DNA from: Rubripirellula sp.
GTDB taxonomy: Bacteria; Planctomycetota; Planctomycetia; Pirellulales; Pirellulaceae
DNA length: 36,833 bases
Assembly: GCA_022425745.1 (NCBI GenBank)
Contig: JAKMEW010000300.1
Coordinates: 1 to 36,833, forward strand
Direction of reading: 5' to 3'
This document shows, piece after piece, positions 26,282 through 36,833 of the stretch. Made by a program: the position numbers and the translations under genes. The notes under the pieces were generated by a model, which made no database searches, was not told the origin of the DNA, and worked only from the letters and a program-made list of their open reading frames with translations. The stretch's first letter is position 1, and every line of letters starts with the position of its first letter.

Positions 26282-26323
26282 TTTGGTTCACAGTGCACGA
26301 GTAGGTTTCTGCTAGAAACCAAA
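26282..26323 (-). repeat. Two mutually exclusive hairpin arms in the leader of the QW-repeat gene
   Basis: GGTTTC (26304-26309) pairs with GAAACC (26315-26320) over a 5-base loop. TTTGGTT (26282-26288) can alternatively pair with AACCAAA (26317-26323), which shares bases with the first stem. If the gene starts at 26214, this lies in its 5' leader and resembles an attenuator-type switch. If it starts at 26337, it is coding sequence. Confidence 0.4.
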
Positions 26324-34292: not shown

Positions 34293-36170
34293 GTGAACCA
34301 GCATTTCCACGAACCATCTGCTGAACTTCGAATGATCAATCAACCGCTTCGACAAAAACTCGAATCTCTCATTTGGCCACATGTTCAGACACCAGCACAA
34401 TACGTCGGTGGCGAACGAAACATTGTCGTCAAAAATCATCATGAACTTAAAGGCAAAGTATGCCTTGGTTTCCCTGATGCCTACACCATTGGCATGAGCC
34501 ACCACGGCTTGCAGGTTCTCTACTCGTTGATGAATCGACGTCAGGATTGGTGCGCGGAACGTGTCTTTGCGCCTTGGCCAGACATGGAAGCTCAACTGCG
34601 CCGCCAACAACTACCGCTCTACAGCCTAGAAACCTTCACACCTCTATGCGAGTTTGACGTTGTTGGCCTTTCTCTGCAGTACGAAATTAGTTCACCAAAT
34701 GTCCTTACGATGCTTGACCTTGGAGGCATTCCCCTTGAGTCATGCGACCGGACCATGGCAGACCCCTTGATTTTGGCCGGCGGTCCATGCTGCCAAAACC
34801 CTGAACCCATGGCAGACTTCTTCGATGTGATGATCGCGGGTGATGGCGAGCCTATCCTTCCGGAAATATGCGATCTATGGATCGAACTGAAGAAACAGTA
34901 CCGAAATGAGAACGGAGAATTTGAACAAGGCTCTTCGGGACAACGACAACGTGTTGAAGCTTTAGCAACACTCGCGAAGACAATTGAATCTGCCTATGTA
35001 CCCCGATTTTATCAACCAGAGTACCACCAAGGCCGAATCGTTGCGCTCAATCGCACTCGAGATGATGTTCCTGCAACGATCGCCCCCAGTGTGATCAAGG
35101 ATCTCGATTCGATTCCTTTACCCACAAAACCAATTGTTCCATACATCGAATGTGTTCACGATCGAATCGCAGTGGAAATCATGCGGGGCTGTCCACATCT
35201 GTGTCGATTCTGCCAGAGTACCGTGATCAAACGCCCCCTCAGAATCCGAGAAGTGGAAACGATCGTCGATGCGGCTTTAGAAAGTTACCGAAACACCGGA
35301 TACAACGAGATCAGCATTCTGTCCCTCTCCAGCAGCGATTACCCACATTTTGAACCGCTTGTTGAACGACTACACGAAATCTTCAAGCCACTGGGTGTGA
35401 ATATCAGTGTCCCAAGTCTTCGTGTCAACGAGCAATTGCGAACCCTTCCAATTCTTCTCGGTAGTGATCGCCGGCGCAGCATGACCTTGGCGCCAGAAGT
35501 GGCTCGCGACGATATGCGTGAACAGATTCGAAAGAAAATCAAGAACAGTGATCTCATCGAAGGCTGTCGAGTTGCTTTTCGAAATGGTTTTGAAAGTATC
35601 AAGCTCTATTTCATGTGCGGGCTACCAGGTGAACGCCCGGTGGATCTAGATGGCATTGTCGACTTAGCTGAAACGATCGCCAAAGTTGGTAAAGAAGAAA
35701 CTGGGCGGTACGCTCGCGTGACTGCAAGCGTCTCCAATTTCGTACCAAAAGCACATACCCCCTATCAGTGGAACGGTATGCAGAGACGAGAATACTTCAA
35801 ATGGGCGCATCGTTACCTCCGTGATCGCCGGCAAATTCGAAGTGTCACCGTAAAATGTCACGATGTTGAAACGAGCCTCCTTGAGGGCGTTCTTAGTCGC
35901 GGCGATCGACGCACTGGTAAAGCGATCCGGCTGGCTTGGGAAAGGGGAGCTCGAATGGATGGATGGACCGAGCATCTTGACCCTCAACGGTGGTGGAATG
36001 CGATTGAAGATGCGGAGATTGATGTTGAAAAACAGGTCCACACAAAATACGAACTGCTCGAAAAACTGCCTTGGGATCATATGAACGTCAAATTCGGGCG
36101 TGGATATCTCGAGAAAGAGCAGGGCAGGGCAACGGTCCAGCTTGAGGAACTTGCAAAAGTTACCGAGTGA
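34293..36170 (+). CDS. TIGR03960-type B12-binding/radical SAM protein
   Basis: The 625-residue protein matches the TIGR03960 family: an N-terminal cobalamin-binding-like region (FPDAYTIGMSHHGLQVLYSLMNRR, RVFAPWPDMEAQL, ETFTPLCEFDVVGLSLQYE, ILAGGPCCQNPEPMADFFD, IAGDGE) and a radical SAM barrel with C300-x3-C304-x2-C307 (RGCPHLCRFCQ). Later come MTLAPEVARDD, KLYFMCGLPGE and FVPKAHTPYQW. The family is usually beside or fused to a DUF2344 (TIGR03936) partner and often near ribosomal protein L21 or RNase E/G genes; none is here. The reaction is unknown. The GTG at 34293 is chosen by open frame; an ATG at 34332 is equally possible, and neither has a ribosome-binding site. Confidence 0.88.
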   Translation: MNQHFHEPSAELRMINQPLRQKLESLIWPHVQTPAQYVGGERNIVVKNHHELKGKVCLGFPDAYTIGMSHHGLQVLYSLMNRRQDWCAERVFAPWPDMEAQLRRQQLPLYSLETFTPLCEFDVVGLSLQYEISSPNVLTMLDLGGIPLESCDRTMADPLILAGGPCCQNPEPMADFFDVMIAGDGEPILPEICDLWIELKKQYRNENGEFEQGSSGQRQRVEALATLAKTIESAYVPRFYQPEYHQGRIVALNRTRDDVPATIAPSVIKDLDSIPLPTKPIVPYIECVHDRIAVEIMRGCPHLCRFCQSTVIKRPLRIREVETIVDAALESYRNTGYNEISILSLSSSDYPHFEPLVERLHEIFKPLGVNISVPSLRVNEQLRTLPILLGSDRRRSMTLAPEVARDDMREQIRKKIKNSDLIEGCRVAFRNGFESIKLYFMCGLPGERPVDLDGIVDLAETIAKVGKEETGRYARVTASVSNFVPKAHTPYQWNGMQRREYFKWAHRYLRDRRQIRSVTVKCHDVETSLLEGVLSRGDRRTGKAIRLAWERGARMDGWTEHLDPQRWWNAIEDAEIDVEKQVHTKYELLEKLPWDHMNVKFGRGYLEKEQGRATVQLEELAKVTE

Positions 36171-36218
36171 TGCGGCAGTGCGTGCCTCGGCACAATCAAT
36201 CGATAGCAAGCCGCATCA
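36168..36218. repeat. 9-bp perfect inverted repeat over the radical SAM stop codon
   Basis: TGATGCGGC (36168-36176) is exactly inverse to GCCGCATCA (36210-36218). The 33-base loop contains a second small hairpin, GTGCC-TC-GGCAC (36182-36193). No T tract follows. It is the first of a series of inverted repeats running towards flgM. Confidence 0.6.
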
Positions 36219-36675
36219 TGCATTCACGCCAAAACCGAATCTGTTAGCAACGATTTACCCAGATTCGGTAGGTCCACCGCAGAGTCAACTGTCGTCGTAA
36301 TCAATTAACGCGATAATCTGCCTACACGGGAGCAAGCACTGTGCCGACGGCTCTTTTGCTAGCGTCATTGGATTTCTGACAGAAACGGTAGCACCTTTTC
36401 AGGACTTTACCTGAAGGTTGACAACCACGAGAGACGATACCGTCCATAGCTTTCGCAATTTTCGCGCTGAAAAGTCTCTTTTCGCTTACGGATTGCATCC
36501 TGGGACAAGGATCGCGGCGCCTATGACCGAAGCGAAAGCCCCAGCCATCCCCACGTGAGGGGGATGTCCGGAAATCGGTCACCTTTGCGCTTACACTCCT
36601 CTAGTGTTGTCTGCCATGGTTTTGGTAGTACTACAGTCTGTGGAGATTCTCGTCCCTCATGGGAGCAATTTGATT
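36219..36675. other. Hairpin-rich intergenic region before flgM; possible structured RNA or leader
   Basis: This gap has no gene I recognise but many inverted repeats: ACCGAATCT (36234-36242) with AGATTCGGT (36261-36269); TTTCTGACAGAAA (36373-36385); ACC-TTCAGG with CCTGAA-GGT around ACTTTA (36393-36418, two-base bulge); GGTTGACAACC (36416-36426); GAAAAG-TCT-CTTTTC (36469-36483). Closest to flgM, TGACCGA (36524-36530) with TCGGTCA (36575-36581) encloses CATCCCC (36546-36552) with GGGGATG (36560-36566). GAGC...GCTC plus TTTT (36330-36357) could be a weak terminator. Which strand would carry an RNA is undecided. Confidence 0.5.
36322..36582 (-). CDS. Possible small basic hypothetical protein
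   Basis: An 86-codon frame starts at a GTG (36582); a shorter form of 58 codons could start at an internal ATG. The product is rich in Lys, Arg and Cys (SRGCQPSGKVLKRCYRFCQK) and has no membrane segment or motif I know. Many codons look like preferred ones (GGT, CGT, ATC, AAA), which argues mildly for coding, but the stretch is also full of inverted repeats, which argues for RNA. I cannot decide. Confidence 0.2.
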   Translation of the reverse strand: MTDFRTSPSRGDGWGFRFGHRRRDPCPRMQSVSEKRLFSAKIAKAMDGIVSRGCQPSGKVLKRCYRFCQKSNDASKRAVGTVLAPV

Positions 36676-36833
36676 ATGCAAATTTACGGCCCTTTTCGGG
36701 TTTCAACGAGCACATCGGTTTCGCCAAGCAATCGTGTGCAAAGCCCACCTGCAACTGAAGGTGCTGCAAAATCGTCGGCGGCACCCGTTGACCAACTTGA
36801 TCTTTCAAGCAGTACATCTGACGTCAACCGACT
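36676..36833 (+). CDS. flgM: FlgM-like anti-sigma-28 factor, N-terminal part (3' truncated by window)
   Basis: The first 52 codons are present: MQIYGPFRVSTSTSVSP, a Ser/Pro/Ala-rich disordered stretch, then VDQLDLSSSTSDVNR. The start MQIYGP and the DQLDLSS motif (D-x-h-x-hS) fit FlgM N-termini, including those of planctomycetes; the sigma-binding C-terminal helices lie beyond the window. FlgM holds sigma-28 inactive until the flagellar hook is complete and is then exported. GGGAG lies about 10 bases before the ATG. Upstream is the hairpin-rich gap, so the gene may have a structured leader. Confidence 0.7.
   Translation, partial: MQIYGPFRVSTSTSVSPSNRVQSPPATEGAAKSSAAPVDQLDLSSSTSDVNR

Follow-up and report, generated by a model that had tools for sequence, protein, structure and literature searches.

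A conserved structured RNA in the leader of flgM in Pirellulales and its possible regulation by CsrA

The closest described counterparts of the RNA reported here are flagellar mRNAs bound by CsrA. According to the passages on binding in PMC7652899, CsrA recognizes ANGGAN hexaloops and bridges sites over 10–63 nucleotides (nt), and the Escherichia coli flhDC mRNA is protected from RNase E by two CsrA sites close to its 5′ end. In Campylobacter jejuni, the flaA leader carries two GGA hexaloops 21 nt apart, and flgM mRNA is listed among those bound by CsrA in gel shifts (sections of PMC4894983). FlgM synthesis is also controlled post-transcriptionally by the small RNAs (sRNAs) OmrA/OmrB and CJnc230, which tune sigma-28, as outlined in parts of PMC7549644 and PMC11187230; these act in trans, whereas the RNA described here is a structured leader that probably acts in cis. 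It lies in a stretch of 36,833 nt from Rubripirellula sp. (assembly GCA_022425745.1, contig JAKMEW010000300.1; the window), which ends within flgM, the gene of the anti-sigma-28 factor. A first, sequence-only reading had singled out the gap between a radical SAM gene and flgM (36168–36675) for its dense inverted repeats, and had suggested a small RNA, a cis-regulatory leader of flgM or a remnant of a miniature inverted-repeat transposable element (MITE). We find that the gap holds a structured RNA which, together with its link to flgM, is almost certainly real, conserved in Pirellulales and outside every Rfam family.

A DNA search with 36100–36833 in 60 genomes gave matches in 24, namely the full 22 of the window's genus plus two from outside it. 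Most matches fell in a short block (approximately 36461–36537, in 24/60 genomes, about 80–94% identical), which persists in genomes whose radical SAM gene is located kilobases away. A first model of the element, R1, matched 36446–36543 in the window (E-value (E) 1.2e-25) and found the element in 65 of the 241 genomes of the family, distributed over 9 of 68 genera and with one match each; FlgM was found in 225 of the 241. The ATGCARAT start of flgM lay 195–298 nt downstream of the element start in 63 of the 65; in the remaining two, the contig ends before that point. By eye, this core could also be recognized ahead of flgM in genera missed by R1. A second model, R2, a covariance model, was made from 29 core sequences, 12 of them located by hand, and contains helices P2 and P3 only (table 1). 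Of 40 additional regions upstream of flgM, it matched 34 (E ≤ 0.0043), each time on the strand of the gene (34/34); one of the 40 genomes, G133, was part of the model. Three of the six regions that were missed (L194, L195, L201, L213, L225 and L226) resemble weak versions by eye and were not counted.

In the genome of the window, R2 gave one significant match (36461–36522, E 1.2e-18), the next standing at E 0.32. Across the order, 62 of 196 genomes matched at E up to 0.01, 28 from the window's family and 34 from other families, and a few genomes carry a second, weak match. FlgM was encoded downstream on the same strand at all 29 of the best R2 loci checked besides the window. Ten of these come from four other families and are the 10 best of the 34 other-family genomes with matches. 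In a sample of the phylum, 35 of 392 genomes matched, 7 belonging to the window's family and 28 lying outside the order (E 2.3e-4 to 0.01). At the 23 outside-order loci examined, no FlgM was found except for one 14.5-bit hit, which is not convincing, and we consider these outside matches to be false positives. Because the order matches that were checked precede FlgM and the outside-order ones do not, we assign the RNA to Pirellulales as a leader of flgM. The earlier range of nine genera reflected a limit of model R1 and was dropped, since R2 shows the RNA to be order-wide.

Four helices, P1 to P4, were proposed from 23 homologues, and RNAalifold applied to a longer alignment recovered P1, P2 and P3 independently. 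All three show pairs changed on both sides, the kind of compensatory change that the sequence-only reading had pointed to as a check. In the Rhodopirellula clade, represented by 65 elements (54 distinct rows), pairing is kept in 98.1% of cells, and 11/21 pairs changed on both sides. Four of five covariation measures of the 54-row alignment were reached by 0/500 shuffles and the fifth by 1/500, with at most three both-side pairs in slid controls. This alignment was fitted to R1, which favours the structure of the model; the pre-model alignment gave six both-side pairs, a count reached by 1/500 shuffles, and its pair-types measure was reached by 475/500. For each of the eight pairs of P1, one or more of the 54 distinct sequences carry changes on both sides. 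For P2 this holds for 3/5 pairs in the same sequences and for 4/4 modelled pairs across the order. P3 is almost invariant in the Rhodopirellula clade; order-wide, 3/5 of its pairs changed on both sides and 82.3% of its cells were paired. One test of the core found 6/9 pairs changed on both sides. With 89 aligned cores from the whole order (89 of 90 sources gave a core match; L223 did not), the figure was 7/9, and 0/500 shuffles reached any of the five measures; slid controls of this alignment gave up to six both-side pairs and at most 21 both-side cells, compared with 60 observed. The candidate helix P4 (GGA/TCC, 36490–36492 with 36498–36500) hardly varies in the Rhodopirellula clade and is lost in diverged members; as it is not kept there, it was left out of R2.

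The outer arms of the nested element described in the sequence-only reading form helix PK1, a probable pseudoknot. It is clearest in genus g79, where PK1 was 98.3% paired and 3/10 pairs changed on both sides. When the whole g79 structure was assessed with PK1 included, the both-side count was reached by 84/500 shuffles and the pair types by 499/500, and only the other three measures support it. A mixed set (A5), in which some rows are misaligned, gave 2/7 pairs changed on both sides and 79.1% paired. In two genomes of the window's genus, GAGGTC/GACCTC replaces the GACCG/CGGTC of PK1, and in genus g80 PK1 was not evident. A cross-genus control in which partners were swapped could not tell true partners from exchanged ones (on average, a fraction of 0.43 of the swaps did as well), since many genomes share GACCG/CGGTC. 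An alternative pairing, GGGAC/GTCCC with the Shine-Dalgarno (SD) region, was rejected, not being kept in g80.

The element could not be assigned to a catalogued RNA. No Rfam family matched in the window at the gathering threshold (Rfam 15), and lax searches gave one match for 36100–36833, a CRISPR repeat at E 6.7, and one for 20 diverged leaders, a miRNA at E 0.15. A tRNA/tmRNA search returned nothing usable. Resemblances to riboswitches served as leads only and were dropped. Among candidate RNAs, the Rhodopirellula-1 motif (Weinberg 2010) is named after the same organism group and might be the same RNA. The one table row of PMC2864571 from which we draw the likeness gives Proteobacteria and Planctomycetes, no Rfam number and a ‘y’ that we read as cis-regulatory; unlike the leader, the motif is thus listed also for Proteobacteria. 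In the open-licence literature we found no other paper naming this motif and none on a flgM leader RNA. A MITE remnant is refuted for the leader because it is a single copy in its genome, with one DNA match and one strong model match, and is conserved with its gene. The suggestion of a cis-regulatory leader, in contrast, is borne out by the compensatory changes and by the FlgM that follows every one of the best order matches checked. As for a small RNA, the element precedes flgM at all of these loci, and a free-standing sRNA may arise as a by-product.

A sigma-28-like promoter match lies just upstream of the leader. CGAT[AGT], which we take to be the heart of the −10 box in the consensus of FliA/SigD promoters, occurred within 75 nt upstream of the core in 85/89 loci, compared with 19–35% at five control offsets. 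On the basis of this consensus match and positional enrichment, we predict that the RNA starts at or just before P1. Scans of the window for sigma-70 promoters and terminators gave nothing usable.

The conserved letters of the core point to CsrA. In the 89 aligned cores, the only unpaired letters without exception are the A, G, G and A of C-A-N-G-G-A after P3. This motif, site 2, is present in 89/89 cores, a count that is partly circular. Site 1, A-Y-G-G-A, is found in 76/79 cores of the window's family and in 0/10 cores of other families (alignment A10). The two GGAs are spaced by 18–27 nt in 76/79 family cores, and by 18–21 nt in 60 of these 76, with a mode of 19. Leaders of the Rhodopirellula clade contain on average 2.83 ANGGA motifs as against 0.75 in composition shuffles (n = 63). 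Part of PMC6692469 quotes a CsrA consensus, (A/U)CANGGANG(U/A), from which the leader differs in that GGA and the following G are separated by two letters instead of one. The leader resembles flhDC of E. coli in being a flagellar regulatory mRNA with two CsrA sites, here proposed ones, near the 5′ end and away from the SD; the gene is a different one, and CsrA binding, shown for flhDC in the passages of PMC7652899, is inferred for flgM. With C. jejuni flaA it shares a flagellar mRNA and two GGAs about 20 nt apart. In the sections of PMC4894983 that describe flaA, the GGAs occupy two adjacent hairpin hexaloops in a short leader, whereas in flgM, site 2 is part of an internal loop, and the fold around it is larger and covaries.

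On balance, we lean towards a cis-regulatory flgM leader that would be bound by a CsrA dimer and set the stability or translation of the flgM mRNA. CsrA is the best-supported mechanism, and its binding and effect would proceed as follows. Sigma-28 would transcribe flgM from the promoter at 36412–36440, and the first approximately 95 nt of the RNA fold, as the covariation shows, into P1, P2 and P3, with a probable pseudoknot to the next hairpin. This scaffold would display the two ANGGA motifs, 19 nt apart and some 40–65 nt from the predicted 5′ end, where one CsrA dimer could bridge both. The sites are located approximately 170–190 nt ahead of the start codon and do not cover the SD, which is why we prefer 5′-end protection or remodelling, the mode of action on the flhDC mRNA of E. 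coli, to occlusion of the SD. Altered mRNA stability, or an altered SD hairpin, would then change, in either direction, the amount of FlgM, the protein that limits sigma-28.

Several observations weigh against this proposal. Site 1 is missing from every core of the four other families (10/10) and, within the window's family, from L204, L207 and L215, and the two-site reading therefore fails for part of the RNA family. Its stem is only 2 bp in the window, and swapped stems were as good in 31/1000 cases with 76 sequences and in 3/1000 with a 50-sequence subset. The loop that holds site 2 is internal and asymmetric rather than a hairpin loop. Folding z-scores of whole leaders are weak in several genera, ranging from −3.76 to −0.22 (mean −1.68, n = 21), and the SD hairpin is absent in genera g85 (0/13) and g12 (0/2). 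The presence of CsrA in 20/20 leader-bearing genomes searched (PF02599) favours the proposal, but as evidence it is weak because CsrA is so common in these genomes. PF02599 matches number 3 in the window's genome and 4–14 in each of the 19 others, far above what E. coli would lead one to expect. Finally, the strongly conserved scaffold exceeds what a CsrA site needs.

Another protein might bind the leader instead, for example FlgM itself in autoregulation, sigma-28, a chaperone of flagellar export or a ribosomal protein. Leaders that bind proteins typically combine one dedicated target gene with a large conserved structure, as is the case here; nothing specific points to such a protein, however, and the invariant letters are ANGGA, the CsrA signature, which leaves this explanation quite unlikely. 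A small-molecule riboswitch we consider unlikely as well, if somewhat less so; the asymmetric loop between P2 and P3 would then be the binding site of a metabolite or second messenger, and flgM translation would be switched by the SD hairpin together with the pseudoknot. The highly conserved core in the 5′ untranslated region, the covarying stems and the pseudoknot would suit a riboswitch, as would the SD hairpin of at least 4 bp found in 47/63 leaders (shuffled control, mean 33.8, maximum 41 in 200). That hairpin is not universal, however, no Rfam riboswitch matched, and the RNA precedes the same gene, flgM, in every locus checked. Metabolite riboswitches usually stand before several genes of one pathway. 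The leader might also, or mainly, be released from the flgM transcript and then act in trans, either by titrating CsrA or by base pairing. Such action has a precedent in C. jejuni, where the flaA mRNA titrates CsrA through a two-GGA leader (as described in sections of PMC4894983), but only two strong GGA sites are present here and, in the window, the stretch from the core to flgM yielded no terminator, so that we regard it as improbable.

Table 1. Positions in the window of the flgM leader, its helices and proposed binding sites, and the adjoining promoter and gene.
Feature	Position	Strand	Details	Basis
Sigma-28-like promoter	36412–36440	+	TGAAGG 36412–36417, GACGATAC 36433–36440	Consensus match
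Structured 5′ leader of flgM mRNA, whole element	36446–36675	+	About 230 nt	
Helix P1	36449–36456 with 36532–36539	+		Covariation
Helix P2	36464–36468 with 36516–36520	+		Covariation
Helix P3	36474–36478 with 36502–36506	+		Order-wide covariation
ANGGA site 1, proposed CsrA site	36488–36493	+	ACGGAT	
ANGGA site 2, proposed CsrA site	36505–36512	+	ACAAGGAT; GGA starts 19 nt from site 1	
Helix PK1, probable pseudoknot	36524–36530 with 36575–36581	+	Nested element of the sequence-only reading	
Hairpin P5	36546–36552 with 36560–36566	+		Relatives differ in stem letters, pairing kept (by eye)
Hairpin P6	36611–36616 with 36623–36628	+		By eye in relatives and single-sequence folds
SD hairpin	36653–36656 with 36661–36664	+	SD GGGAG 36661–36665	
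flgM, anti-sigma-28 factor	36676–36833	+	Cut by the window end; first 52 residues	Profile match

The identity of flgM was examined in four relatives, all of which scored above the cut-off of the Pfam family PF04316 (FlgM) and below that of NCBIfam TIGR03824. Within the leader, the apical loop of P5 (AGGAT) and a GCATCC after PK1 recur in the genus and in near genera (e.g. L063 and L067), and might pair to form a second pseudoknot; both sequences have changed in the subclade to which the window belongs.

We also revisited the inverted repeats of the gap. Both perfect stems are present, the first with 9 bp (36168–36176/36210–36218) and the second with 10 bp (36234–36243/36260–36269). The nested element is there too, the 7-bp PK1 arms enclosing those of P5, which themselves sit inside a 12-nt pair that is 83% complementary; 94 bases lie between its end at 36581 and the flgM ATG. 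With a strict definition (perfect arms of at least 7, loop of 3–60), the gap contains five repeats and not the ‘at least seven’ that had been counted. The mean in 500 dinucleotide shuffles was 1.31, and 5/500 reached five. For arms of at least 9, there were two repeats against a mean of 0.064, with 1/500 shuffles as high. A count of five was also reached by 6.3% of all 508-nt segments of the window, taken at steps of 100 nt with genes and gaps pooled, and the densest segment, starting at 26301, has seven. Repeat density in the gap thus exceeds chance yet is not unique within the window. Although the gap is unusual, it is chiefly the 3′ half (36412–36675) that matters. Folding exceeded that of shuffled sequences both for the leader (36446–36682, z = −2.39; 2/200 shuffles equal it) and for the upstream part (36168–36445, z = −3.08; 1/200). 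Lack of covariation and conservation, with folding no better than shuffled, had been named as grounds for abandoning the idea of a functional element; the outcome was the opposite.

The two stems that had appeared strongest, at 36168–36218 and 36234–36269, lie outside the conserved flgM leader. Among the matches listed in the DNA search of 60 relatives, none from another genome covers 36173–36354, and copies of the 36168–36269 stems were not seen by eye in segments of four close relatives. The region from the radical SAM stop codon to the flgM promoter (36168–36445) thus folds well, and its sequence was not found in relatives. The first stem starts at the radical SAM stop codon and may terminate the transcript of that gene, although it has no T-run. 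This upstream half is what favours reading the gap as ordinary intergenic sequence, with hairpins that are terminators, chance repeats or a transposon remnant, and for 36168–36411 that is the default. As an account of the whole it has next to no probability, and for 36446–36581 it is refuted by the one strong match in the genome, the covariation and the order-wide conservation before flgM. A TGCTA[GAT]C[AG] box (36354–36361 in the window) occurs within 260 nt upstream of the core in 20/89 loci, often 36–104 nt before it, possibly as the extended −10 of a housekeeping promoter additional to the sigma-28-like one. In genome G021 (contig C301, 13823–14761), three extra stretches resemble the last approximately 38 residues of the radical SAM protein and are spaced about 410 bases apart.

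The flgM leader is an apparently uncatalogued structured RNA, kept across an order and with one dedicated target, the anti-sigma factor responsible for the timing of late flagellar genes. More tentatively, it may represent an order-wide RNA family in which a pseudoknotted leader holds CsrA sites in place close to the 5′ end of a transcript made by sigma-28; members of an expanded CsrA family (3–14 matches per genome) would thereby gate anti-sigma synthesis and close a post-transcriptional feedback on flagellar or swarmer-cell development in Pirellulales. We found no paper in the open-licence literature on a link between CsrA and the sigma-28/FlgM switch in planctomycetes; if true, the leader would provide a concrete one. 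It is also a compact RNA in which the embedding of GGA sites within a complex fold can be studied.

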